This document shows, in pieces, positions 11,726-27,708 of a stretch of 36,198 nt of DNA. Numbering within the stretch: the first letter of the stretch is position 1; each line of letters begins with the position of its first letter. The notes below the pieces were generated by a model. That model did not search any database and was not told the DNA's origin. It saw only the letters and a list, made by a program, of their open reading frames with translations. Source of the DNA: an uncultured Fibrobacter sp. (GTDB taxonomy: Bacteria > Fibrobacterota > Fibrobacteria > Fibrobacterales > Fibrobacteraceae); the NCBI RefSeq assembly GCF_947305105.1, contig NZ_CAMZCS010000032.1:1-36198 (forward strand), written 5' to 3'. The position numbers and the translations under genes are program-made.

Positions 11726-13417
11726 TTACCGCGGCCCGCTCTGCTTCTTGACCTTCAAGGCAAGTTCTACATCGGCCAAATCGATTTCGTACTTGTAATC
11801 GGGCTTGTAATTACGGGCATTCCCTTCTAGGTTTTCGCCGCCAGCTACAAGCCAGTTCGATTTCATCTTGGCAAAACCCACACTCGTATCGACGGGAGCA
11901 CCGTCTTCATCATAGAAGGTGTAAAGTTCCACTGGTTTTTCGGTATCGAAGATGTTCTTTTCGATATAGCACTTGGCCGAATCGGAACATTCAACGCCAG
12001 CTTCGCTCACATCGGCAAAAAAGTTGTTGTAAGCGTGAAGTTCTCCGCCATGCGCACGGATTCCCTTTCCGGCAAGCCCTGCAAAATAGCTGTGATGCAC
12101 GGTAAGTTTCTGGTCCGGTTCCTTCACGATATCGGCAGTGAGCCCGAACAGGATTCCCGTCTGCGCATTTTCGAAACGAGACCAAGAAACAGTCACATTG
12201 TGCGAGCCGCGCTTCACGTCGAATTCTACAAGCGGATATTCTTCGAAGGTGCAGTGGTCCACCCACACATGGTGCGTCCCGTTATGGATAGAAAGCGCAC
12301 GTCTGGATGTCGTGTCCAACGCCGTAATCGCAGGAGCAGTAAAGGTCAGGTTCTCAAAAATCAGGTTGCTAGAAACTTCCGTCAGCACACCCATGCCGGT
12401 AATGCGGATATCGCGGCCACGGCCGTCAATCGTCTTGTCTTTCTTGAGGCGGAGCGGAGCCTGCAAGTTGTAAGTCCCGCTCTTTTTGAATAGCACCCAC
12501 GTGGGGCCTTCCCTGTAGGCACATTCGCGCAACGAGCCCGGAGCTATTTCTGCTTTTGTCACCGCATTGCCCAAAGAATCGACGTCTGTAGTGTCTTCGA
12601 CGATGATATAGTCTTCCGTCGTCGTCACGATGCAGATTTCGCCTTCGGCCTTGGTGATTTCGCCCAAGCTATCGGTAACGCCAGCCGCGCCAAGCGTTCC
12701 AGCCGCATAGCCATCTATTTGAGAAAGCAGGGCTTCATGTTCGCCCCAATCCTTCCCGGGGTATTCGCTTGCAGCCGATTTCTGCGACTTGATAACATTG
12801 ATACCCGAAGCCGAATCGGAACAATCCACATAAAGCGTGTCCCCGGTAGCCGACTCGACTTTGGCGGAATACGTTTCTGAGGGGTCCCCGATTTGGACAT
12901 CAAAAGTCCCTGCCGGGAGCGAATCAATCACAAAATGCCCCGTACTGTCGGGAACTACATAACGGTCAAGGCCGGCTACACGGATTACAGGGGATGTTTC
13001 GCCAAGCAAAACGAACCCTTCGATAGACGAAAGTTCACCCAATTCAATCGTATCCACCTTGGAATCATCATTTTTTGAATCCAGGGCAACATATTGAACA
13101 GCGCCCGTCGCCAAGGAACCATCGACATGGCGGGCTTCCACCGTGTAAGAACCGGGCTCCGCCTCCATTTTTATAAAGCCATCTGCATCTGATTCTTTCC
13201 ATTCGGCGGGAGAACTCCCGTCGCTGAGAAAATCTCCAGGAAGCACGCGCACGCGGGCATACGCTGCGGCACTCCCATCGGAGAGCCGCACACGGAAAGC
13301 CATCGTAGACTCGGCTTCCGTGCCGCCTGCAGTCTCGGGCCCTTCGCTACTGGAACACGAGACAAGGAACGCCGCCGCGAGCGACACGGGCAACAAAAAC
13401 CATATTCCCTTATTCAT
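11726..13417 (-). CDS. Pectate lyase-like lipoprotein, PL1 family
   Basis: 563 residues. It starts MNKGIWFLLPVSLAAAFLVS followed by Cys (lipobox LVSC). The ATG at 13417 overlaps the stop of the upstream regulator by 8 bases and has GGGGGAGG about nine bases before it. Residues ~40-230 form two carboxypeptidase-regulatory-like or Ig-like beta modules (FRVRLSDGSAAAYARVRVLP and a GEL-SSIEGFVLLGET segment). The parallel beta-helix follows, with TIDGRGRDIRITGMG, NLIFENLTF, HHVWVDHCTFEE, a FENAQTGILFG turn and KLTVHHSYFAGLAGKGIRAH. The order fits PL1 lyases that cleave homogalacturonan by calcium-dependent elimination. It is the last gene of the pectin operon. Confidence 0.85.
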   Translation of the reverse strand: MNKGIWFLLPVSLAAAFLVSCSSSEGPETAGGTEAESTMAFRVRLSDGSAAAYARVRVLPGDFLSDGSSPAEWKESDADGFIKMEAEPGSYTVEARHVDGSLATGAVQYVALDSKNDDSKVDTIELGELSSIEGFVLLGETSPVIRVAGLDRYVVPDSTGHFVIDSLPAGTFDVQIGDPSETYSAKVESATGDTLYVDCSDSASGINVIKSQKSAASEYPGKDWGEHEALLSQIDGYAAGTLGAAGVTDSLGEITKAEGEICIVTTTEDYIIVEDTTDVDSLGNAVTKAEIAPGSLRECAYREGPTWVLFKKSGTYNLQAPLRLKKDKTIDGRGRDIRITGMGVLTEVSSNLIFENLTFTAPAITALDTTSRRALSIHNGTHHVWVDHCTFEEYPLVEFDVKRGSHNVTVSWSRFENAQTGILFGLTADIVKEPDQKLTVHHSYFAGLAGKGIRAHGGELHAYNNFFADVSEAGVECSDSAKCYIEKNIFDTEKPVELYTFYDEDGAPVDTSVGFAKMKSNWLVAGGENLEGNARNYKPDYKYEIDLADVELALKVKKQSGPR

Positions 13418-14327
13418 CGTCCGTTGCCTCCCCCGCCTTCTCGGTGTCGGCAGCCTGAGCAAGTTCCTGCCCGCGAATCCGGCGTTTGCGCCCGCGCCGC
13501 TGCGGCGGTGGATACGGGTCCGAAAGCGGGAAAAGTTGCATCCCCAGCTGGAACACGCGATTGGGCTTTTCACACTGCGCAACCTTTGCAAGAATCTCAC
13601 GGCGGAAACGGCGAACCATTTCGACCAATTCGCTATACGTTGTCTCGTCGCAGGCAAATGCAAGTGTCGAAAGATTGCGTTCTTCCTTGTCGAAACGGTC
13701 CATCGCCGTCTGGGCTACATCCAGATTCTGCTGGATGTACGAATTGACTGCAGTGCTGTATGATTCCGAACCGCTCGAAATCAACCCCTGAGTCTGTACA
13801 TAAGAACCTGTCGCCTCGTCTTTGCGGATCATGGAAAGGCGTTCGAGCAATGCAATGGAGCTCTTCACCTGGCTTGCCGTAATCGGCGGGCGCACCATGA
13901 GCCCGAGCGCGGCATCGTCGCCCACGTACGGGTAAAAAGTCACAAGTTCACGAACAACCGCATGGTACCAGTGATCAAAATATTCAAACTGGTCCTTCGC
14001 CACGTTTTCGACCTTACATTCCTTAGTCGCCACGAGTTTTTCAAGATACTGACGGCTTTCGGAATGGGTCTTGGCCTGGTTAAAGGCCACCATGTCGGCA
14101 AAATATGACTTTTCGCGGGAGTCGTTACAAAAAATATCGGCAAAAACGGAAACCAGGCGAGCTGTCAGATTGCGCTTGCCCTGCAAAATCTTGTTGAACA
14201 TCGATGCGTCGAAACCGGCACGTTCGGCAATGTAGCGGTGGCTAAAACGCCAATCGCCCTTGTGACGTTCCTCGTAGGCATCGCGCAAAAATTCGCGGTA
14301 GTTCAAATATTCAAAAAGATTGACCAT
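13410..14327 (-). CDS. TIGR02147 family regulator-like protein (DUF4423)
   Basis: 305 residues, predicted cytosolic. The N-terminal part, MVNLFEYLNYREFLRDAYEE, then a helix-turn-helix-like segment (FSHRYIAERAGFDASMFNKI, LQGKRNLT), is typical of the TIGR02147 paralog family of Fibrobacter. The C-terminal half (residues ~120-270) is helical and ends in a basic tail (RRGRKRRIRG). The HTH-like start suggests DNA binding, but targets are unknown. It sits between the CE12 gene (10-base gap) and the PL1 gene (8-base overlap), so it is probably co-transcribed with, and may control, the pectin operon. Confidence 0.85.
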   Translation of the reverse strand: MVNLFEYLNYREFLRDAYEERHKGDWRFSHRYIAERAGFDASMFNKILQGKRNLTARLVSVFADIFCNDSREKSYFADMVAFNQAKTHSESRQYLEKLVATKECKVENVAKDQFEYFDHWYHAVVRELVTFYPYVGDDAALGLMVRPPITASQVKSSIALLERLSMIRKDEATGSYVQTQGLISSGSESYSTAVNSYIQQNLDVAQTAMDRFDKEERNLSTLAFACDETTYSELVEMVRRFRREILAKVAQCEKPNRVFQLGMQLFPLSDPYPPPQRRGRKRRIRGQELAQAADTEKAGEATDDE

Positions 14328-14337
14328 AGTTCAAAAA

Positions 14338-16080
14338 TCAGCGGGAGTAAAAACGGGGGAATAATTGCCGACGGCGCGCCATATCCGAATCGGGAACCTT
14401 GCGGCCAAGGGCATTGAAAGTCTTCTTTGGAGCAGGGTTCACAGAAAATTCGCGTACAGGAACAATACGTGTCGTTTCTTGAGAATCGTTCGCCACCTTC
14501 GCGGGCTTGCATCCGGTGCGGTACACGCCCTTGATGTCGAAAGCGATCATATCGATGTTCGGGCCGCCGTCATTTGTGGTGGAGGCAATCGTCATCTGGA
14601 AATCCAAAGCATCCACCCAGACATCCTCTATATAGACGGTATCCCACTTGTCCCAGGAGCCCGTCGGCGGGAAGGCGACATCGTAAGTGCCCTTGTCAAT
14701 CGTGATTTTCATGTCGCGGTTGGATGTTCCGGCAAAGGCATAGCGCACCATGACGCGGGCGTTGGAGGCCGACTGGTCGGAAGTCAAGTTATAAACGGCC
14801 TTGCTCGTCGCGGTATTCGAAATGTTATAGAATCCATGGCCCGTATACCCCTCGTGGTCCTTGTCGGTCGAACCGTCGCTCACCTCGGGGCTGGACATGT
14901 CTATCGGGGAACGCCAAGCCGTATCGGCCACGCCCGTAAAGCAGAGCGCCGTATCAATAGAGGCCGACGAACCGGGTTCTTCCGAGCTTGAAGAAGTCGG
15001 ATTTTCCCCACTAGAGCCTTCCTCACCGTGATCGACCTTCTGGCATTCCGAACCGCCCTTGAACATCGCCGTGTAGGTAATATCGCGGGCCTTCGTCTTG
15101 AAGCCGTAATATATCTGCTTGGTCGAAACCTCGTTGCAATCGTCATCGACCCACTTTTCAAATGTCTGGCCGTTGGGCGTCACGCGGAGCGTCATCGGAG
15201 CGCCCGCCGGGAAGTACTGCGTCTGCGTAATGAGACCTTTATAATTCGAAAGGTTCGTCTGCACTTTGATGGTGTAGCGCGGCTTGATGGCGGAGACAAG
15301 CGTCGTGAGGGCAGCCTTCGCCTCGTCGGAGAGGTTCGTATTGTTCTTGAGGTTATCCTCGAGTTCTTCGCAAATCAGCTGGGCATGGCCCATGGAGCCC
15401 ATCTCCTGGAAGTGCGTCGTACCGTCGTTCACACCGTCCGGGTAATTCGGGTATTCGCCCTTCTCCAACTTTTTGTACAGGTAACGCGTCACGTAATCTG
15501 GGATATTCTTGTACGTCGTATTGTACAGGTTATACGCCTTCATGTTCAAATCGACAAAAGGAATCTTGCTGTTCGTCGCAATCTTTTGCATCATGCCACG
15601 GGCATCGTAGTTATTGGCCCCCGTCGAAAAGACATTGCGGCTTCCGTTCAGGTTCATAGGAGAAACCAGGATGACATTCACACCCTTTTTCTTACCCTCA
15701 TCGACAAACTTCTGGATGTAGCCGGGAAAATCCTCGGGCGGCACGTAACGGGCTTCCTTGCTGTAATCACGGTCGTTATGGCCGAACTGCACCAAAAGGT
15801 AGTCCCCCTTCTGCGCAGCTTTGAGGATTCCGTCCAAGCGGCCTTCTTCGATGAAGTTCTTGGAACTGCGCCCACCGAGAGCCGCATTGTTCACCTTGAC
15901 GCGGGCTCCATCAAAGAAATACCCGAGGACCTGCCCCCAACCCGTCTGCGGGTAGGCGGAGTCCTTGTAAGTCTGGACCGTCGAATCGCCAGCCACGTGA
16001 ATAGTGAAACTCGTGGAATCACTCACCGCGACCCCAGCGAAAATTAATGCAAAAAGAAAGAATTTAAACGCTCTATTCAT
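14338..16080 (-). CDS. Rhamnogalacturonan acetylesterase (CE12) with CBM35-like module
   Basis: 580 residues, exported (signal MNRAFKFFLFALIFAGVAVS). The SGNH hydrolase domain has GDST (Ser33), NNAALGGRSS (65-73), QFGHND (98-103) and DGTTH (219-223), giving the Ser and Asp/His of the active site. This is the set expected for CE12 esterases, which remove acetyl groups from galacturonic acid in rhamnogalacturonan. A beta module (~268-345), a Ser/Glu linker (EEGSSGENPTSSSSEEPGSS) and a CBM35-like module (~385-515, with PPTGSWDKWDTVYIE) follow. The ATG at 16080 has no Shine-Dalgarno; a heptamer array begins five bases upstream. Confidence 0.87.
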   Translation of the reverse strand: MNRAFKFFLFALIFAGVAVSDSTSFTIHVAGDSTVQTYKDSAYPQTGWGQVLGYFFDGARVKVNNAALGGRSSKNFIEEGRLDGILKAAQKGDYLLVQFGHNDRDYSKEARYVPPEDFPGYIQKFVDEGKKKGVNVILVSPMNLNGSRNVFSTGANNYDARGMMQKIATNSKIPFVDLNMKAYNLYNTTYKNIPDYVTRYLYKKLEKGEYPNYPDGVNDGTTHFQEMGSMGHAQLICEELEDNLKNNTNLSDEAKAALTTLVSAIKPRYTIKVQTNLSNYKGLITQTQYFPAGAPMTLRVTPNGQTFEKWVDDDCNEVSTKQIYYGFKTKARDITYTAMFKGGSECQKVDHGEEGSSGENPTSSSSEEPGSSASIDTALCFTGVADTAWRSPIDMSSPEVSDGSTDKDHEGYTGHGFYNISNTATSKAVYNLTSDQSASNARVMVRYAFAGTSNRDMKITIDKGTYDVAFPPTGSWDKWDTVYIEDVWVDALDFQMTIASTTNDGGPNIDMIAFDIKGVYRTGCKPAKVANDSQETTRIVPVREFSVNPAPKKTFNALGRKVPDSDMARRRQLFPRFYSR

Positions 16081-16084
16081 GATA

Positions 16085-16154
16085 AGTGGTTAGTGGTTGG
16101 TGGTTAGTGGTTAGGGATTCAAGCACTCAGGCCTCGAGCCTGGAGCCTCGAGCC
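16085..16154. repeat. Heptameric array filling a gap inside the pectin operon
   Basis: Ten contiguous units read AGTGGTT, AGTGGTT, GGTGGTT, AGTGGTT, AGGGATT, CAAGCAC, TCAGGCC, TCGAGCC, TGGAGCC, TCGAGCC. They occupy almost the whole space between two CE12 genes and touch the upstream stop codon at 16156-16154. This one array switches from AGTGGTT-type to TCGAGCC-type units. Confidence 0.88.
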
Positions 16155-18013
16155 TATTTCACCTTTGCATACATTCCATTAAATTTCACATTCCCCTGTT
16201 TCACGACAACACGGTAGAGACCGGCCGCGCCGACGGTGGAAGCCAAGTCCAGCGTTCCCGACCCGACAATCTTGCGGGCGACAATTCGACCCTGCATGTC
16301 GAAAATGCTTACCTGTGCTGGCCCATTGCCAGCCAAAATCAAGTCGTTCCCGCGTATGCGAACCGCAGGTTGCCCAACCCCGCCCCGGGTCGCAATCTTC
16401 GTAATATCGCTGGAATCTTCGCAAGATTCATCACCCATGCGGCACACGCCGGCAAAGCTGAAGCCGAACGCGTCGATATTCGGGGCACCATCGGAGGTCG
16501 TCGACATGAACTTGAGTTCCGCCTCGCCCTGCGGCGCGTCGAGCACCACGTAAGCCGTGTCCCAGGTATCCCAGGAACCGGTCGGCGGGGCCTTCAGGTA
16601 ATAATCGTGGTCCAGATAGGCATTGAACGTACGGTCGGCATTTCCACCGTTCGCATAGCGCACGGCAAGCGTCACATAGCCCGCTGCCGGGAACTTCAGC
16701 TTGTAAGATGCAAACGACGTGTTGGAATTCTCCATGTTGTAGAACCCTTTGCCGATAAATCCGGTCCAGTTGTTCTCGGTATTACCGACACCGCTGTCCG
16801 GATTGCTCGCATCGATGAACCTCTTGATATCCTTGTCGACCGGCACTGAAATCTCTTCACTCCCTTCGGGAGGAGTGTAGGGGACAAAGGTCACATCGTC
16901 CAAATTCTTGGGAGTCGTCGTCGGGAATGCCGTCAGTGCGGCACCGTCACCCGTGTACTTCTCGGCTGTACCGCCCTCGTAAACAGCCGTGTACTGCGTC
17001 GAGGCTTTGCCCATCTTGAACGTATAGATATACGCAGACTTCACTTCGGAGCGGCTCGATGCGCCGACCTTGTTGCCGTTTCCGTCGTACCAGCCAAGGA
17101 ATTTTTTTCCATTTTTCGGGATCGTCTTGAGCAAAACAGTCATGCCCTGCGGATAATACGCACTGATAGATGTCGCCTCGGCAGAACCTTCCGGAGAGAC
17201 CTTCACATCGACCTGGTACATGGGAGCCATGTACTCGCCGAGCTTTTTCACGACCGTATCCGAGTGGGCTCGCATCTGCTCGGTTATGATTCGTCCGTAA
17301 GCGTTCGCACCGTTCATCTGCAAATGCACCTGATCGGACTGGTCGGCCCCCAAATTCGAATATTCCGCCTTTGTGGAGAAATTGTAAACAAACTGCTGGG
17401 CATATTTTTCGCCCACAGAAATCATGTAGTTCGCAACCATCTCGCTCATGTCGATGAAAGGGACATTCAAGTCTTTGGCTAGTTGCTGGTTAAGCGCCGG
17501 GTAACCACGATAGCTGTTATGGATTTGCGTCGGGGAATCGAAGATACAACGGCGAATCGGGCTCATGATGATAGGATTCGCCCCCTTGGCACGAACATCA
17601 TCGACCATCTTTTTCATGTTGGACTTGTAAAAATCCTCGGTACTGTAATTGATGTCGTTAATCCCGAACTGGATAACCACGTAATCGCCGGGCTGCAGCT
17701 TTTCGGCAATGCAGTTACCGTTGGAACAGCCCTTCTTGAAGAACATGTCATAGTAGCCGACAGCAATGCCACCGTTCTTGTCTTTACCGCCACCACCCAG
17801 CGACATGCCGCCCTGACCACGATTTACGACCTTCGCCTTGTCAAACCAGAAATGAAAATCCTGGCCCTGCCCCTGCTTGGGGTAGTAGCCCTCGTTCCAA
17901 TCCTGCATGGTGGAATCGCCACACATATATATAGTCACCTCCGCCCAGACAATCGAAGACACGACTATCGAGGCGAGGACGGCAGTTTGACATATTTTGT
18001 TCAAGAGGGGCAT
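16154..18013 (-). CDS. Second rhamnogalacturonan acetylesterase-like protein (CE12), with CBM35-like and sorting-like domains
   Basis: 619 residues, exported (signal to about IVWA, residue 24). SGNH motifs are CGDST (31-35, Ser34), NRGQGGMS (64-71), QFGIND (115-120) and DQVHLQ. GIND replaces the GHND of its neighbour, a substitution at a normally conserved position. After a beta module, a CBM35-like domain (~410-530; APPTGSWDTWDTAYVV) and a C-terminal module with VSIFDMQGRIVARKIVGSG and GLYRVVVKQG resemble T9SS/Por-type sorting domains. Overall order matches the neighbour, so the two arose by duplication, but sequence divergence is large. It lies 30 bases after the PL11 gene. Confidence 0.84.
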   Translation of the reverse strand: MPLLNKICQTAVLASIVVSSIVWAEVTIYMCGDSTMQDWNEGYYPKQGQGQDFHFWFDKAKVVNRGQGGMSLGGGGKDKNGGIAVGYYDMFFKKGCSNGNCIAEKLQPGDYVVIQFGINDINYSTEDFYKSNMKKMVDDVRAKGANPIIMSPIRRCIFDSPTQIHNSYRGYPALNQQLAKDLNVPFIDMSEMVANYMISVGEKYAQQFVYNFSTKAEYSNLGADQSDQVHLQMNGANAYGRIITEQMRAHSDTVVKKLGEYMAPMYQVDVKVSPEGSAEATSISAYYPQGMTVLLKTIPKNGKKFLGWYDGNGNKVGASSRSEVKSAYIYTFKMGKASTQYTAVYEGGTAEKYTGDGAALTAFPTTTPKNLDDVTFVPYTPPEGSEEISVPVDKDIKRFIDASNPDSGVGNTENNWTGFIGKGFYNMENSNTSFASYKLKFPAAGYVTLAVRYANGGNADRTFNAYLDHDYYLKAPPTGSWDTWDTAYVVLDAPQGEAELKFMSTTSDGAPNIDAFGFSFAGVCRMGDESCEDSSDITKIATRGGVGQPAVRIRGNDLILAGNGPAQVSIFDMQGRIVARKIVGSGTLDLASTVGAAGLYRVVVKQGNVKFNGMYAKVK

Positions 18014-18017
18014 AAAA

Positions 18018-18045
18018 AGTGGTTAGTGGTTGGTGGTTAGTGGTT
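18018..18045. repeat. Heptameric array between PL11 and CE12 genes
   Basis: Four units, AGTGGTT, AGTGGTT, GGTGGTT, AGTGGTT, fill the 30-base gap. The stop codon of the PL11 gene (18046-18044) is formed by the last unit, and the array ends four bases before the ATG of the next gene, so no Shine-Dalgarno fits. Confidence 0.88.
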
Positions 18046-21000
18046 AAGGATTGACAAAGAGGGATTTCTGCATCAGTTTTCCGTCGCGCTTCACCTTCAC
18101 GATATACGTTCCACCCGGCAACACGCCCCGTTCGAGCGCAATTACGCCCTCACCTGCAGACGCATTACCAGAAACTGCGGCTCGCATTGAACCCGTAGCA
18201 TCGTAGAAGAGCACTTCGACAAAACCAGGAACAGAAGTGAAAAGAGTACCTGTCGACGGACGATAGTAGAAACTTCCACCAATTTGCACAACCGGGAGGG
18301 CATCCGAATTTTTATTGCTCTTATAAAGTTCCACACCGGCAATATCAAACAAGAACGCATCCACATCTGCGCCGCTGGTCTTTGACATCGACTTGAGCGT
18401 AATGGTGTTCTTGCCTTTTTTCAACTTGATGTCTATGTCGTACGTATTCCACATAGACCAGCCACCCGTCGGGCCCATCTCGACCGTCCCGACTTCTTTG
18501 CCGTTCACAACAAGTTTCATTTCACGGGAGGTACTATCACCATTAGCGTAGCGCACCGACATCGTCGTCGCGGATTCGCTAGCAGACTTGACCAACCATG
18601 TTCCATAACTCGACTTCGAATTCTTGAAGTCAAAGTAGCCATTTCCAATATAGCCCTTGGACTCTTTTCCCGTCGAGCCTTCGCCTTCATCCGGAATGGC
18701 CGCATCCACAATGGAAGATGCGTTCACGACCACCTTGGAAGAATCCTTCTTGTCCGGATTCGTCTTTGTGGAATCCTTCTTGTCCGGATTCGTTTTTGTG
18801 GAATCCGTCTTCGACGTATCCGGCTTGGGGGCTTCCTTCACGACAATTTCGCCCTTGACCGTTGCATTTGCAGCCTTGCTGCCCTCGGTCTTTATCGTGA
18901 ACTTGAACGTACCCGTCTTTTTCGGCGTACCGGAAATCCAAACAGTCTGCTTCGCCGAATCGACCTTGGCAGAAACTCCCGACGGGAGACCATCCACCTT
19001 GACCCCAGTGCAGAACAGGAACTCGTAACCGATAGCCTTTATCGAATCGCCCAAAGTAACGGTCTGCTTTTCTTTCGCACCTTCCATCTTGGAAAGGATT
19101 GCATCAGGATACACGGTAAATGCGCTGTCGCCCACGGTATACACGCTAGGTTGCATCAACTTCTTGACCATGTCGGGCAGATAGTAGCTCGTATGCGGGG
19201 GCTGGTTGTAGCCCGTATTCTGCCATGCAACAGCAGTCCTATAAACGGCATCGTGCATCAGCGTGTAAAGGCGGTACGGAGTCGTCACCGGAGTAGAGAT
19301 GATATAGATTTTGGACGGATCGTTCTCGGTGCGAAGGATCAGTTCTTCGCGCCAGTCTCCAAAGAGATCCGCAACGAGGAGCGGAGTATTCTTGGTGCCG
19401 TTGCATCCAGAAAGCCCAAGCGCCGCAGTTCCATCAAAATAGTGCGGCATTGACTGATTTGGCACATCCGGTTTATACACGATGGCTCCGTCAAGCAATT
19501 CATCCTGCAAGTCTCCATCGAAGTATATGCGGAAATTAATCGGATAGCCTAAAGTGTCTTCATTTTCATAGAGATAATGAGTGAAATACAAAGTAGTGTC
19601 CGCTAGCTTAACCGTGTCATATACGACACCAACGGTATCACGGGTATAATATATGGGATCGTCAATATAATTTCCTTTCGCCGAACGAATCGCTCGGCCC
19701 TTCGAAGACCACATCTCAAGTCCACGGTACGTAGAATCAATATCGGCAGCCAAACCACGACCATTATCTATACCCCCCTGCAAGGTCCCCCAAAGGACCT
19801 TACCATTGGCATCACGCAGTTCATCCATATATGGGGTCTGATACCAATACTCATGAACACCCCAGAATTCAAGCCCCGGATTGTCCGGATCAATATCGGC
19901 AAGATGTCCGGCATCCCCGTGACCAAAGCCGGTAGAGTAACGAACCGTTCCGTCATGATTCAAAGCCGCAGCACCATAAACAATTTCGTCAAAGCCATCG
20001 CCATCCAGGTCGCCCACAAAAATATTGTGGTTGCCCTGAGCGTAAAGGCCTTCGCCCGGAGTTTCGGACTTATGGAACCAGCGTTGCTTCAGGTCCTTGC
20101 CGTCAAAATCATAGGCAACGACGTAAGCCGCCGTATAATAGCCACGGGCAATGATGGCACTCGGATGGATGCCATCCAGGTATGCCGTTGCCGCAAGGAA
20201 GCGGTCACAACGGTTTCCATAATTGTCGCCCCACGTAGTCCCCCCAACGGAATCCGCCGGGCCAAACTTCCTGGCATCGCGCGACGGGAGATACTCAATC
20301 GTCGTGATTTCTGCGCCATCAATTCCACGAAACACCGTCAAGTATTCCGGACCAGAGACGATTCGGCCCGCAGAGTCGAGATAATTCTTGCTAGAATCAC
20401 CTATAACCTTCCCCTTTCCATCAATCGTGCCGTCCGCGGTCTTGACAATCATTTCTGCCTTGCCGTCACCATCGTAGTCGTAGACCTGGAACTGCGTATA
20501 ATGCGGACCCGACCGTATATTCCAGCCCATATTGATACGCCACAGTTTAGTCCCATCGAGTTTGTAGGCGTCAATCAAGGTCGGGCTGGTAAAGCCATCC
20601 ATCACAGGGTCTTTGAAATTCGACGGCTCCCATTCCAGAACCAGTTCATATTGGCCGTCACCGTCCAGATCGGCGACACTCATGTCGCTGGCCCAATAAG
20701 TACAGGTGTCTCCAGCCATGGACTTAGGACAAGCCGGAGCATCCACATTCAGCACCTTGTACGGGAAAGACTGCCCCCCAGAAGAAACGGTCGAATCCAT
20801 AACGAAAGACACAGCCTTCTTTTCGCCTTCTGAACTGTCCACGACAGCCGAGACCGTGTACTTGGACGTAATCTTCCCATCCTTGTCCAAGTAGTTGGTC
20901 CCGTCCGTCTTGCCGATCGTGGCAATTTTGGTGCCGTCACGGTAAAGGTTGAATTCCGTATCAGATTTTTCAGTGCCTAGGAGCCTCCACGAAACGAGCA

Positions 21001-21139
21001 TCCCGGACTTCCCGACATTCGCGACAACAAGCCCTCGGTCCAAAGCCTCCATCTGGCGAGGCAGAGCGAAAGACTGGAGCGGAAGAGCGAGGACTATAGC
21101 CACAACCGCAAGAAAACCAAGACAAGGATGTTTTGCCAT
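18044..21139 (-). CDS. Rhamnogalacturonan lyase PL11 with linker, CBM35-like and sorting-like domains
   Basis: 1031 residues from MAKHPCLGF, where AGGAG lies eight bases upstream; an ATG 16 codons earlier lacks that signal. After the signal (to about SFA) the N-terminal PL11 domain starts RQMEALDRGLVV. It contains the repeated calcium-binding style motifs DLDGDGQYELVLEWE, YDYDGDGKAEMIVKTADGT and GDLDGDGFDEIVYGA of the eight-bladed propeller, and DLFGDWREELILRTE. The catalytic part ends near 690. A linker with duplicated TNPDKKDSTK units (~770-800), a CBM35-like module (~810-940) and a C-terminal sorting-like module follow. The enzyme cleaves the rhamnose-galacturonate backbone by elimination. 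Confidence 0.92.
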   Translation of the reverse strand: MAKHPCLGFLAVVAIVLALPLQSFALPRQMEALDRGLVVANVGKSGMLVSWRLLGTEKSDTEFNLYRDGTKIATIGKTDGTNYLDKDGKITSKYTVSAVVDSSEGEKKAVSFVMDSTVSSGGQSFPYKVLNVDAPACPKSMAGDTCTYWASDMSVADLDGDGQYELVLEWEPSNFKDPVMDGFTSPTLIDAYKLDGTKLWRINMGWNIRSGPHYTQFQVYDYDGDGKAEMIVKTADGTIDGKGKVIGDSSKNYLDSAGRIVSGPEYLTVFRGIDGAEITTIEYLPSRDARKFGPADSVGGTTWGDNYGNRCDRFLAATAYLDGIHPSAIIARGYYTAAYVVAYDFDGKDLKQRWFHKSETPGEGLYAQGNHNIFVGDLDGDGFDEIVYGAAALNHDGTVRYSTGFGHGDAGHLADIDPDNPGLEFWGVHEYWYQTPYMDELRDANGKVLWGTLQGGIDNGRGLAADIDSTYRGLEMWSSKGRAIRSAKGNYIDDPIYYTRDTVGVVYDTVKLADTTLYFTHYLYENEDTLGYPINFRIYFDGDLQDELLDGAIVYKPDVPNQSMPHYFDGTAALGLSGCNGTKNTPLLVADLFGDWREELILRTENDPSKIYIISTPVTTPYRLYTLMHDAVYRTAVAWQNTGYNQPPHTSYYLPDMVKKLMQPSVYTVGDSAFTVYPDAILSKMEGAKEKQTVTLGDSIKAIGYEFLFCTGVKVDGLPSGVSAKVDSAKQTVWISGTPKKTGTFKFTIKTEGSKAANATVKGEIVVKEAPKPDTSKTDSTKTNPDKKDSTKTNPDKKDSSKVVVNASSIVDAAIPDEGEGSTGKESKGYIGNGYFDFKNSKSSYGTWLVKSASESATTMSVRYANGDSTSREMKLVVNGKEVGTVEMGPTGGWSMWNTYDIDIKLKKGKNTITLKSMSKTSGADVDAFLFDIAGVELYKSNKNSDALPVVQIGGSFYYRPSTGTLFTSVPGFVEVLFYDATGSMRAAVSGNASAGEGVIALERGVLPGGTYIVKVKRDGKLMQKSLFVNP

Positions 21140-21192
21140 AATTTCTCCTGACTTTTGATGGTTATTTGCCAAACATCCCCTTTTCAAAAATA

Positions 21193-23397
21193 CTATTTCG
21201 TAAACGAAACGACTTTCCTTCCGACGAAAACTCCGTCCACATCGACCGTCACAGCAAAAACGCCTTCTGGGAGCACATCGCGGCCAAACATCTTGGACAT
21301 TTCCCCGGCCTTGACATTCCGGGAGGCACTCATGACTTCACGCCCTTGCAGGTCCATAATCCGCACACGCGCAAGGCCAGCCTTGTTCACGCGCAGCGCC
21401 CCATCGACAAAGGCGAAGCCGTCTGCCTTACGCATATTTTTTAGGTCAGGACGCACCACCAACGGGACTTCGGCCGTATCGCCGCCAATTATTGTCACGT
21501 CCGGCTTTTTCAAATCCTTGACCGCGTCGGGCAAGTAGTAACCCAAGTGAGGCGGTTGGTTGTACGCCACGTTCTGCCAGGCAATCGAAACGCGGTAATG
21601 GGTATCGTGCATCAGCGTATAAACACGGTAAGGCGTAGTAAACGGTGTCGTAAAGATAATGACCTTCGAAGGGTCGGAAGCGGAGCGCACGATGAATTCC
21701 TCGCGCCAGTCGCCAAAGAGGTCGGCCACGAGGCAGGGGTTCGCCTTGGTCCAGTTATTGAGCGAAGCGCCTTCTACATTGTAGAAGCTGAAAAGGCGGT
21801 CCACAGTCTTCTTGCCGGAATTGTACTTGTCAATCTTTCCGCCAGTGGCGCCACCGTTTTCCACTGTCGGGCTACCGGTGCCGTCCATCAGTTCGTCCTG
21901 CAGGTCTCCATCAAAGTAGATGCGGAAATTCTGCGAGAGGCCCGTCGTGGTGACGACCTTCCCCTTGACGGAGCGGGCGCCCTTGCTGGTGCCGGACCAC
22001 ATTTCGAAACCGCGATTCGTGGAATCGATATCGGCAGCCATGCCACGACCGTTGTCAACATTTCCGGCCTCGGTCTGGGTCGTTCCCCAGATGACCTTGC
22101 CGTCCTTGTCACGGAATTCTTCGCTATACTTATTTTGTTTGTCTTCGTGGACATCGTAAAGTTCAAGACCCGGATTGTCCGGATCCATGTCCGAGAGGTG
22201 CATGGCGTCGCCGTGACCGAACCCGGTGCGGTAAAGGAGCGTGCCGTCGGACTTGAGGGCAGCCGCGCCAAAGACAATCTCGTCTTTGCCGTCGCCATCG
22301 AGGTCGCCCACAGAAAGGTTGTGGTTGCCTTCGCCATAAAGCCCCTGGCCGGACTTGTCGGAAGTATGCTTCCAGCGTTCCTTGAGATTCTTGCCATCGA
22401 AATCGTAAGCGACAAGGTAGGCCATCGTGTAGTAGCCACGGTTCATGATGACACTCGGATGCTCGCCATCGAGGTAAGCAACCGCAGCAAGATAGCGTTC
22501 ACTCCTGTTCCCGTAAGTATCGCCCCACGACTTTGAAATATCGATCTTGGGCCAATAATCAATCGTGGTCACCTCCTCGCCCGTATTCCCCTTGAACACG
22601 GTCAAGAATTCGTTCCCGCTCATGATGCGGCCTGCAGAGGTCCTGTAATCCTTGCTTGCATCGCCAATGACTTTGCCCTTGCCGTCAACCGTGCCGTCGG
22701 AAGTCTTCATCACGATTTCGGCAATCCCGTCGCCATCGAGGTCGTAGACCATGAACTGCGTGTAGTGCGCACCGGCGCGGATGTTCTTGCCGAGGTCGAT
22801 TCTCCAGAGGCGGGTGCCGTCCAGCTTCATGCCGTCGACAAAGACCGAGCCCGTATAGCCGTCTTTCGAGTTGTCCTGCGCATTGCTCGGGTCCCATTTG
22901 AGGACAAGGTCAAGTTGGCCGTCGCCATCGAGGTCACCCACGCTCATGTCGTTCGGGGTATAAGTGCAGGTGGAGCCGTCGGGCATCGTCTGTGATTTCG
23001 GAACATCGAGCTTTAAAACCTTGTAGGGGAAATTGACGTTGCCTTCCTTTTTCGCATCGGTAAAGACGATTTCGGCCTTCGATTGCTTCCGTTCGGTACC
23101 GCCCACGACAGCAGCGACAGCATATTCGCTCTTTGTGGATCCCTCGGCATCGGCATAGAATGTCGGGTCGTTAGGGCCAATTGTCGCTATTTTGTTTCCA
23201 TCGCGATAAAGATTGAACTCCGTGGCCGGGTCATCGGAGGCAAGCAAGCGCCAGCCAACCACCACTCCAGACGAAGTCGCCGCCACAGAAAGACCACGAG
23301 TCAAGCCCTCGACCTGGCGCATTCCGGCAAAAGACATCGAAAAACAGCCGAAAAGTAGCGAAAAAGCACCTACCGACGCAACAAATCTCATTCCCAT
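21193..23397 (-). CDS. Rhamnogalacturonan lyase PL11
   Basis: 734 residues, first gene of the pectin operon. GGAGG lies six bases before the ATG at 23397. A signal peptide (MRFVASVGAFSLLFGCFSMS) precedes RQVEGLTRGLSV. The PL11 propeller motifs DLDGDGQLDLVLKWD, YDLDGDGIAEIVMKTSDGT, GDLDGDGKDEIVFGA and DLFGDWREEFIVRS are all present. It lacks the linker and CBM of its neighbour and ends with a short sorting-like module (LARVRIMDLQGREVMSAS, GVFAVTVDVDG). The two PL11 proteins align along the catalytic part and are separated by 53 bases, so an ancient tandem duplication is likely. Confidence 0.92.
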   Translation of the reverse strand: MGMRFVASVGAFSLLFGCFSMSFAGMRQVEGLTRGLSVAATSSGVVVGWRLLASDDPATEFNLYRDGNKIATIGPNDPTFYADAEGSTKSEYAVAAVVGGTERKQSKAEIVFTDAKKEGNVNFPYKVLKLDVPKSQTMPDGSTCTYTPNDMSVGDLDGDGQLDLVLKWDPSNAQDNSKDGYTGSVFVDGMKLDGTRLWRIDLGKNIRAGAHYTQFMVYDLDGDGIAEIVMKTSDGTVDGKGKVIGDASKDYRTSAGRIMSGNEFLTVFKGNTGEEVTTIDYWPKIDISKSWGDTYGNRSERYLAAVAYLDGEHPSVIMNRGYYTMAYLVAYDFDGKNLKERWKHTSDKSGQGLYGEGNHNLSVGDLDGDGKDEIVFGAAALKSDGTLLYRTGFGHGDAMHLSDMDPDNPGLELYDVHEDKQNKYSEEFRDKDGKVIWGTTQTEAGNVDNGRGMAADIDSTNRGFEMWSGTSKGARSVKGKVVTTTGLSQNFRIYFDGDLQDELMDGTGSPTVENGGATGGKIDKYNSGKKTVDRLFSFYNVEGASLNNWTKANPCLVADLFGDWREEFIVRSASDPSKVIIFTTPFTTPYRVYTLMHDTHYRVSIAWQNVAYNQPPHLGYYLPDAVKDLKKPDVTIIGGDTAEVPLVVRPDLKNMRKADGFAFVDGALRVNKAGLARVRIMDLQGREVMSASRNVKAGEMSKMFGRDVLPEGVFAVTVDVDGVFVGRKVVSFTK

Positions 23398-23680
23398 TCA
23401 TAGCCTCCGAAAAAATTGAGCGGCATACCAATTTTATGAATTTAATATATATTTTTTCAAAAAAAAGTCTACATTTCCAATTGTATTTTTTTATTTCAAA
23501 AACAATTTGGCTACAAAAAAGACATGAGAATTGTCCACATATTCAAAAAGCAATTCCGCAGCCATCCATGTTTATCGTTTTTTACATTCGCCTTCAAAAA
23601 AAGCAACATGCCAACAAATAATTTTCATATAAGAAACGCACCCACGAACAATCCGGGCGTTTTACTATCTTTGGGAGCAA
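23398..23680. other. Divergent promoter region of the pectin operon and the yihY-like gene
   Basis: AT-rich spacer without a gene. On the minus strand TATATT (23449-23444) with TAGACT about 16 bases upstream is a weak promoter candidate for the PL11-led operon. For the plus strand, no clear pair was picked before the ATG at 23681. Confidence 0.4.
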
Positions 23681-25320: not shown

Positions 25321-27708
25321 ATGGACAAAGTCATTTCCATACGCGGTTGTAGGCTGCACAACCTGAAAAACGTCGACGCCCAGTTCCCGCTGGGCAAGAT
25401 TACGGTTGTTTGCGGGCCTTCGGGCTGTGGAAAGTCGACACTCGTGCTCGACACCCTGCACGGCGAATCCAAGCGCCGCTATCTGGAAACACTCTCCCCC
25501 TTTGCCGCCGAACTCCTAGGCGGGCGAAGGATTATCCCCATCGACAGCGCCGATGGGCTCCCCGCTAGCCTCGCCGTTGGCCCGAGCCATGGCGAAGCTC
25601 CCGCAAAAGCCTACGCATTGAGCCTTTCGGAATGCGACAGTACGCTGCGCGGGTTATTTGTAAGGTTCGCAAAGCCCGCCTGCCCCGTGTGCGGCAAGCC
25701 GATGGAAAGCCAGAGCCGCGAAGAGATTATCAAAGAAATCGCCGGACTGCCGCAAGGGAGCAAGCTGCAGTTTTTCGCGCATCTCCCCACCAGCCGCACC
25801 AGCCTCGACAAGCTGGCTGCTGTATTCTTGGCGCAGGGTTTCACCCGCGCCATGGCCGACGGCGTCAGTTATTCACTGGCCGACCTCACCGAAAACGAAA
25901 AGGGAATCGTTCCCGAAGATTTCTTCATCGTCGTGGACCGCGTAATTGTCCGCGAGAACACGCGCACCCGCATTGCCGAAGCCGTAGACGGAGTCCTGAA
26001 ACTCACCCACGGCGAGCTAGTCCTCGACATCAACGGTAGCCGAAAGCTCTACAGCACGGCCCCGCGCTGCCCCGACCACGGAGCACAACAGTCCCGGCCG
26101 CTCCAGTCGGAAGACCTGTCCCCCTACTCGCGCACGAGCGCCTGCCCCACCTGCGGCGGCACGGGAATCATCGAAAAAGACGACACCACCGAGGACTGTC
26201 CCGACTGCAAGGGACTCCGACTCAGGCCAAACCTGCTCCAATCGGTCATCGACAACTCCACCTGGAAGGACTTGCTCGAAACGCCATTCGCCAAGCTCGG
26301 GCCGAAACTGCACCAGCTGTTCGACAGCCGCCTGAACGCGAACCAGAAGCCCGCCTTCAACGCGCTCCTCGACCGTATCGAGGCCATCAACGAACTCGGC
26401 ATCGGCTACCTGACCGGCGGTCGCAGCGCGACCACGCTTTCGGGCGGCGAAATCCAGCGTTTACGCCTTTCGAGCCTCAGTACCGGGCATCTGAACAACT
26501 TGCTCATCGTCCTCGACGAACCCGCCAGCGGACTCCACCAATGCGACGTGGAAGCGCTCTGGAAAGTCCTCAAGAAGGTCCAGTCCCGAGGGAACACGCT
26601 CGTGCTCATCGAGCACAACCCGGGCATCATCAAGCGAGCTGACTGGATTATTGAAATGGGACCGGGAGCCGGAGAAAAAGGCGGCGAGATCTTGTTCCAG
26701 GGAACAGCAACGGAAGTGCTGGAGAATCCGCAGTCACCGACGGGTGCGTGGATTAGGATTTTAGACGAGAGACGAAAGACGAGAGACGGAAGGAAAGACG
26801 AGAGGAATGACGAGAGAGGTGGGTTTGTCATTGCGAAGGGCGTAGCCCTGAAGCAATCTAAGAACGCAGCGACCATCGACATCAAGAACTTCGCGATGTT
26901 CGACATGAAGCCGGTGTCGGCGGAATTCCCGGTGCAAATGTTCAGCGTCATCACGGGCGCAAGCGGCAGCGGCAAGTCTACGCTCCTGTTCAAGAACCTC
27001 GCCCCCCGCGCCAGTCAGGGCGAGTTCGAAGACCTCGGCATCCAGGCGCTCTCCGTCCTTTCGACAGGCGACTTCCACGGGAACCGCCGCAGCACGGTCG
27101 CCTCGGCCATCAGCCTGAACACGATGCTGCGCGACTTGTTCGCGAAACTCCCCGAAAGCAAGGTGCGCGGCTACACGGCCTCGAAGTTCGCGACGCACGC
27201 CCCCGGCGGCCGCTGCGAGAACTGCAAGGGCGAAGGCGTACTCTACGACCCCGCCGGCTACGAAGAGACCGAATGCCCCGTCTGCCTCGGCAAGCGCTTC
27301 AAGGACGAAATCCTCGAAGTCCGCTTCAAGTCGCTATCCATCGCCGACATCCTCGATTTGGAAATCGGCGAAGCCTACAAGCTCTTTATCAACCTCAAGC
27401 CATTTGCAGACAAATTAAAGCCATTGGTCGATACAGGTCTTGACTACCTGAAACTCGGACAAACGACGGCCCATCTTTCCGGCGGCGAACGCGCCAGGCT
27501 CCGCCTTTCCATCGCGCTTGCCCGTGCCAAGGCACCCAACACGCTTTTCCTTTTCGACGAACCCGCCCGCGGGCTCCACCAGAAGGACATCCAGCATTTG
27601 CTCGACCTTATCCGCGGACTCACCGAAGCGGGACATACCGTCATCGCCATCGAGCATGCGCAGGATTTCGTGAACGCGGCCGATTACGTCGTGGAACTGA
27701 GCCGGTAA
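25321..27708 (+). CDS. Short UvrA-like ABC ATPase with in-frame repeat insert
   Basis: 795 residues, against about 940 for canonical UvrA. Two ATPase halves are present: Walker A GPSGCGKST (near 32-40) and GASGSGKST (~545), signatures LSGGEIQRLRL and LSGGERARLRL, and Walker B VLDEPASGLH and LFDEPARGLH. Zinc-binding pairs CPVC, CPTC/CPDC and CENC/CPVC are retained. The segment after the first Walker A is divergent (LDTLHGESKRRYLETLSPFA), so this is probably a second, UvrA2-like paralog rather than the repair enzyme itself. At about residues 481-514, between the halves, the heptamer plus REP-like repeat encodes LDERRKTRDGRKDERNDERG and then FVIAKGVALKQS. DNA binding is likely; the role is unclear. 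Confidence 0.88.
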   Translation: MDKVISIRGCRLHNLKNVDAQFPLGKITVVCGPSGCGKSTLVLDTLHGESKRRYLETLSPFAAELLGGRRIIPIDSADGLPASLAVGPSHGEAPAKAYALSLSECDSTLRGLFVRFAKPACPVCGKPMESQSREEIIKEIAGLPQGSKLQFFAHLPTSRTSLDKLAAVFLAQGFTRAMADGVSYSLADLTENEKGIVPEDFFIVVDRVIVRENTRTRIAEAVDGVLKLTHGELVLDINGSRKLYSTAPRCPDHGAQQSRPLQSEDLSPYSRTSACPTCGGTGIIEKDDTTEDCPDCKGLRLRPNLLQSVIDNSTWKDLLETPFAKLGPKLHQLFDSRLNANQKPAFNALLDRIEAINELGIGYLTGGRSATTLSGGEIQRLRLSSLSTGHLNNLLIVLDEPASGLHQCDVEALWKVLKKVQSRGNTLVLIEHNPGIIKRADWIIEMGPGAGEKGGEILFQGTATEVLENPQSPTGAWIRILDERRKTRDGRKDERNDERGGFVIAKGVALKQSKNAATIDIKNFAMFDMKPVSAEFPVQMFSVITGASGSGKSTLLFKNLAPRASQGEFEDLGIQALSVLSTGDFHGNRRSTVASAISLNTMLRDLFAKLPESKVRGYTASKFATHAPGGRCENCKGEGVLYDPAGYEETECPVCLGKRFKDEILEVRFKSLSIADILDLEIGEAYKLFINLKPFADKLKPLVDTGLDYLKLGQTTAHLSGGERARLRLSIALARAKAPNTLFLFDEPARGLHQKDIQHLLDLIRGLTEAGHTVIAIEHAQDFVNAADYVVELSR
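26764..26859. repeat. Intragenic heptamer array plus REP-like element in the uvrA-like gene
   Basis: GACGAGA, GACGAAA, GACGAGA, GACGGAA and further 7-bp units run to about 26824. TTGTCATTGCGA, GGGC-GTA-GCCC and GAAGCAATCT follow at 26825-26859. The order is the same as in the intergenic copies at 38-200 and 2599-2688, but here the reading frame is kept open. Confidence 0.88.

Follow-up and report, generated by a model that had tools for sequence, protein, structure and literature searches.

What does a TIGR02147 protein do among the genes of a pectin-degrading cluster? Fibrobacter is a main cellulose degrader of the rumen, and within Fibrobacterota TIGR02147 forms a large family of paralogues whose role has now become testable. 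The window, by which we mean the whole 36,198-nucleotide stretch of uncultured Fibrobacter sp. DNA analysed here, has Fibrobacter MAGs, mostly from ruminants and horses, as its related named records. Six minus-strand genes fill positions 11726-23397, and re-measurement reproduced the coordinates and the gaps of 53, 30, 73, 10 and -8 bases given by an earlier sequence-only reading:

21193..23397, minus strand: PL11 rhamnogalacturonan lyase a (RGL11_C, 682 bits)
18044..21139, minus strand: PL11 rhamnogalacturonan lyase b, with a CBM6-like module (RGL11_C, 593 bits; CBM_6, 31.2)
16154..18013, minus strand: CE12-like SGNH esterase, with CBM6 and a T9SS-type tail (profile matches)
14338..16080, minus strand: CE12-like SGNH esterase, with a CBM35-like module (profile matches)
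13410..14327, minus strand: TIGR02147 protein, the proposed regulator (346.7 bits)
11726..13417, minus strand: partner lipoprotein with a PL1-fold domain (profile, lipobox; 8 bp overlap with the regulator gene)

These profile scores bear out the families first assigned to the two PL11 proteins, both of which contain RGL11_C and RGI_lyase domains, and to the TIGR02147 protein. Both esterases match SGNH/GDSL (PF13472) above its cut-off and show a GDST motif, and their match to the PaeY model is partial and below cut-off. The add-on modules that were said to distinguish the enzymes are real but modest: the esterases score 24.1 for CBM_35_2 (cut-off 23) and 31.8 for CBM_6 (cut-off 28.9), and the T9SS-type tail of the first esterase scores 23.6 (cut-off 23). 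The locus is flanked by ThiF/SHMT on one side and YihY/UvrA-like genes on the other; the 795-residue UvrA-like protein at 25321-27708 adjoins YihY, and a similar gene follows YihY in several relatives. As had been claimed, the profile scan found no importer or other transporter among the cluster genes, and no SusC/SusD among the cluster and scanned flanking genes. The further proposal that the cluster clears pectin to expose cellulose is less distinctive: in F. succinogenes S85, pectin is known to be hydrolysed but not metabolised (PMC3079729), so the idea is not new, and the absence of an importer from a single cluster is weak evidence for it. The S85 genome paper also describes few regulators near cellulase genes (PMC3079729).

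The candidate regulator belongs to TIGR02147 (Fsuc_second), scoring 346.7 bits over residues 1-271 of 272 against a curated NCBIfam cut-off of 50, and its profile matches are limited to TIGR02147/DUF4423. An AlphaFold2 model (pLDDT 80.8, pTM 0.54) divides it into two regions:

14058..14306, minus strand: XRE/HigA-like HTH region, residues 8-90 (fold match of the model)
13524..14015, minus strand: DUF4423, ArsR-like winged-helix region, residues 105-268 (profile and fold match)

The best fold matches are XRE/HigA (Z 8.7) and ArsR-type (Z 8.1), values of a size that can reflect common arrangements; the C-terminal part resembles ArsR/CzrA, and both assignments recur across the rows of matches with middling scores. 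This architecture suggests that TIGR02147 proteins may be sequence-specific transcription factors, combining an N-terminal XRE/HigA-like HTH with a DUF4423 winged helix. No sequence relative was found in the PDB, and a plasmid search gave no match. The placement of the gene had been presented as a rare clue; the family itself is not rare, with 36 matches, one of them broken, in the window genome, and with matches in 140 of 150 genomes of the phylum. Our genome-wide statistics are based on retrieved stretches of the window genome. We found no paper naming TIGR02147 in the literature searched, which covered few subscription journals, so that an earlier description is possible; one paper lists a Bdellovibrio DUF4423 protein, without a function.

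The constant neighbour of these genes is a lipoprotein. Among the 34 intact TIGR02147 copies of the window genome with a called neighbour, the next gene encodes a lipoprotein in 29 by an automatic test and in 33 by eye, compared with 11 of 84 control genes having a same-strand neighbour within 90 bp, and the two genes usually overlap or stand only a few bases apart. Inspection by eye shows the pairing in 28 of 29 assessable copies from other genera of the phylum; the automatic screen, which flagged 18 of 30, was too strict there. The partners share a conserved motif, AGGTxExxN (e.g. AGGTSETTN), a few residues past the lipid cysteine. A profile of this motif, trained on other genera and applied to the lipoproteins of the window genome, separated partners from other lipoproteins with an AUC of 0.94 (at 4 bits, 23/33 vs 3/109); a regular expression for the lipoprotein tail had been too loose (21/32 partners vs 19/92 others) and was replaced by the profile. 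Past the motif the domains vary, with Fib_succ_major in nine partners, carboxypeptidase-regulatory-like domains in seven, and LamG, CBM4_9 and PL1 in one each. We would therefore describe each TIGR02147 gene as probably forming a two-gene unit with the gene of an exported lipoprotein, and since the pairing is near-universal, the PL1 gene of the window is the partner of its TIGR02147 gene.

Adjacency to enzymes, by comparison, was considered as a family rule and rejected. The suggested survey of whether TIGR02147 genes generally sit beside carbohydrate-active enzyme genes found that they do not: in a neighbour scan covering 20 secreted-looking neighbours, most loci had no enzyme beside them, and at least seven loci of the genome, the window included, had genes for enzymes or polysaccharide-binding proteins no more than three genes away. 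On two contigs (G000 C29, L034-L035, and C3, L040-L041) four and five TIGR02147-lipoprotein pairs follow one another, and their very similar regulators look like the outcome of recent amplification.

The window partner has a signal peptide, MNKGIWFLLPVSLAAAFLVS-C, with the lipobox LVSC of a bacterial lipoprotein, followed by two features of interest:

13304..13330, minus strand: AGGTEAEST motif past the lipid cysteine, residues 30-38 (invariant in 17 orthologues)
11948..12448, minus strand: PL1 domain without the catalytic Arg, residues 324-490 (profile and alignment)

The PL1 fold is clear (Pectate_lyase_4, 76-77 bits against a cut-off of 24). The active-site positions were located by sequence alignment alone, to solved pectate lyases, with residue roles that we take to be those of PelC. 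The position of the catalytic Arg is K451 in the window protein and, across 40 orthologues, D in 22, R in 6, K in 4, S in 4, F in 2 and N in 2. Two Ca2+ ligand positions are replaced, one by R in 40/40 and the other by L in 38 and I in 2, and one Asp is retained; the combination of catalytic Arg and Ca2+ ligands expected of an active PL1 enzyme is absent. The alignment makes a working lyase unlikely. With the catalytic Arg and two of the Ca2+ ligands gone, the domain probably serves for binding, and the most likely role of the protein is that of a partner that binds pectin without cleaving it. The earlier label of PL1 lyase survives as a name for the fold and fails as one for the activity, because the protein is a lipoprotein and the catalytic Arg is absent. 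A structure model of this partner was poor (pLDDT 48) and was excluded from the evidence.

How, then, do the regulator and its partner relate to the enzyme genes? The orthologous TIGR02147-PL1 unit is found in 63 of 80 genomes of the genus. In 20 relatives whose loci were fetched, PL11 and CE12 genes lie upstream of it in 15 and do not in five, and the unit has its own upstream region in 18. Measured by alignment, most of the fifteen have a gap of 105-540 bp before TIGR02147; it falls to 13-14 bp only in two (L170 and L180), and the same measure gives 13 for the window. The compact arrangement had been read as a six-gene operon, which is not supported as a conserved entity: in relatives an upstream region of its own precedes TIGR02147-PL1, which in five genomes is apart from PL11-CE12, and its fusion to PL11-CE12 is derived. 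With that region lost in the window species, transcription of TIGR02147 presumably starts at the PL11 promoter.

The two parts are linked by a shared half-site, TGTRGAC, which in the window lies upstream of PL11a:

23533..23539, minus strand: distal TGTGGAC site (member of the genome's single TGTRGAC-N56..60-TGTRGAC pair)
23467..23473, minus strand: proximal TGTAGAC site, overlapping a -35-like hexamer and spaced 66 bp from the distal site (motif search)
23444..23471, minus strand: promoter-like TAGACT-16-TATATT of the PL11 operon (consensus match only)

Wherever the upstream region of TIGR02147 is free, in 18 relatives, TGTRGAC precedes the gene, in at least two copies in 16 of them, mostly 23-24 bp apart. 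It also precedes PL11 in 22 of 22 upstream regions, among them that of the window, usually as a direct pair with a spacing of 64-66 bp. In total, 21 regions upstream of TIGR02147 hold 35 copies and 22 upstream of PL11 hold 55, against a shuffle mean of 0.7 for each, and in the five genomes with the PL11-CE12 operon elsewhere a TGTRGAC pair still precedes the relocated genes. The regulator's placement is in this sense informative, as first supposed, since the half-site upstream of the PL11 operon also lies upstream of the TIGR02147 gene in relatives. The proximal site over the -35 fits a repressor; an activator there is also possible. Two genomes, G012 (L287) and G050 (L274), have another PL11-CE12-CE12 operon with a second TIGR02147 paralogue running divergently beside it, and these operons also have TGTRGAC pairs, 65 bp apart.

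Across 20 genomes that have the window orthologue, ATGTRGACTTTT matched 82 times and its reversed control 14 times; in 17 genomes without the orthologue the counts were 6 and 9. PL11 is kept in nine of these 17, mostly members of one clade, so that orthologue presence and motif abundance are confounded by clade. Most PL11 upstream regions read in that clade carry the palindrome TTGTCTATAGACAA or GTCCATGGACAA instead; these palindromes (L303-L314: G016, G103, G120, G148, G150, G160 and others) share a TAGAC/GGAC core with TGTRGAC. One genome in which the orthologue was not detected, G111, has three motif matches. The only place in the window genome where a TGTRGAC pair with a 56-60 base gap occurs is the PL11a promoter. 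In 21 genomes with the orthologue this spaced pair matched 38 times and the control 8 times, some of the matches clearly lying within coding sequence; in the 17 genomes without it the counts were 8 and 5. Annotation covered selected matches. A pair with an 8-35 base gap matched mostly coding sequence and was set aside, the 12-mer and the 56-60 gap giving better contrast. Behind the eight promoter-type pairs picked by eye for scanning, the first genes are one PL10 and seven GH43, and at further loci single or paired sites precede GH43, PL11 and GH30 genes; targets chosen in this way show coherence, not a complete regulon. A lone ATGTAGACTTTT at position 1953 of L280 (G000 C5:73451) lies 79 bp from where a Fib_succ_major lipoprotein gene starts and points away from that gene; it is possibly a chance occurrence.

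Other members of the family have repeats of their own. TIGR02147 upstream regions of the window genome contain repeated 7-mers 68-75 bp apart, with a per-promoter fraction of 0.14 and 0.29 in two bins, where 210 controls gave 0.04 in each, and the repeats differ among paralogues (e.g. TGTATCAT, TTGTGAAA, GTGTTCC, TTGCATA). Sharing of 8-mers tracks HTH similarity (rho 0.27 for pairs below 70% identity, reached in 1 of 2000 permutations), a correlation to which recent duplication contributes. General repeat strength did not separate TIGR02147 from control genes (p 0.08), because terminators and AT-rich hairpins dominate that measure; the spacing test did separate them.

We consider it rather likely that each TIGR02147 protein is a dedicated transcription factor with a lipoprotein as its partner, and that the window copy controls an RG-I/pectin regulon through TGTRGAC. 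The pairing, the shared sites with their spacing, the persistence of sites at relocated operons, the background counts where the orthologue is missing and the lost PL1 active-site residues are read from sequence. From these we infer that the window protein would bind TGTRGAC direct repeats at its own unit and at the PL11-CE12 operon, with GH43, PL10 and further PL11 genes as added targets in some relatives. The spacing suggests that regulator bound to paired repeats may act cooperatively or by looping, and either sign of regulation would be conjectural. The lipoprotein would be a binding partner or sensor; sensing and any signal path are likewise conjectural, and a lipoprotein cannot span the envelope, which we count against the signalling part of the proposal. 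More tentatively, and with the balance somewhat against it, the pairs may form a phylum-wide polysaccharide-sensing class, up to dozens per genome, with their own operators and exported binding domains (some of them dead enzymes, as here), in which the motif by the lipid anchor couples the lipoprotein to a signalling route.

Two alternatives deserve weight, each improbable to a similar degree. TGTRGAC may be read by another, unlinked regulator, with TIGR02147-PL1 merely its target and serving a different role. Sites in both promoters fit such common external control equally, and the second paralogue that in G012 and G050 adjoins a PL11 operon with TGTRGAC sites speaks for it; motif abundance, however, tracks the presence of the window orthologue, and paralogues carry their own repeats in their own upstream regions, as autoregulators would. 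Alternatively, TIGR02147 proteins may autoregulate a repertoire of adhesin lipoproteins, choosing which polymer-binder is displayed, and enzyme control here would be incidental. The tandem pair arrays (L034, L040), the variable partner domains and the absence of enzymes among the scanned neighbours of most loci agree with this, whereas the same site before PL11, GH43 and PL10 genes remote from the pair does not. A plain pectin-degradation operon, with an active PL1 lyase and TIGR02147 as a passenger or post-transcriptional protein, is very unlikely: it draws on the short gaps in the window genome and the PL1 match over cut-off, and conflicts with the site-bearing upstream region in 18 of 20 relatives, the separation from PL11-CE12 in five, the unretained active-site positions and the family-wide lipoprotein pairing. 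For the dedicated, lipoprotein-paired transcription factor that we prefer, the pairing, the fixed-spacing candidate operator and the coherent pectin regulon together give TIGR02147 a testable role.

The nearest functional analogue, with unrelated parts, is sigma-I3/RsgI3 of Clostridium thermocellum, in which sigma-I3 recognises pl11 and ce12 promoters and the extracytoplasmic PA14 modules of RsgI3 bind pectin (PMC4711584). Both systems belong to a set of paralogous pairs, and both would share pectin-linked control of PL11 and CE12 and autoregulation, which are predictions here. Unlike that sigma factor and membrane-spanning anti-sigma, ours comprises an XRE/winged-helix protein, an exported lipoprotein and operator-like repeats; the regulator matches only TIGR02147/DUF4423 and the partner is a lipoprotein, which sets them outside sigma-I/RsgI. 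Bacteroidota polysaccharide utilisation loci likewise combine an enzyme cluster with a local regulator, but the present cluster has no SusC/D or other transporter and a different regulator family, and S85 leaves its pectin products unmetabolised (PMC3079729). XRE/HigA-type repressors resemble the regulator in the modelled N-terminal HTH fold and in sites at their own promoter, and differ in that here an additional ArsR-like winged-helix domain is present and the partner is a lipoprotein, not a toxin. At another locus (L055, G000 contig C21), a TIGR02147 gene and a GH26-CBM35 gene run divergently, and GTGTGGACAAAAATGTCTACG lies in the region that separates them; this locus may be a mannan counterpart of the pectin system.
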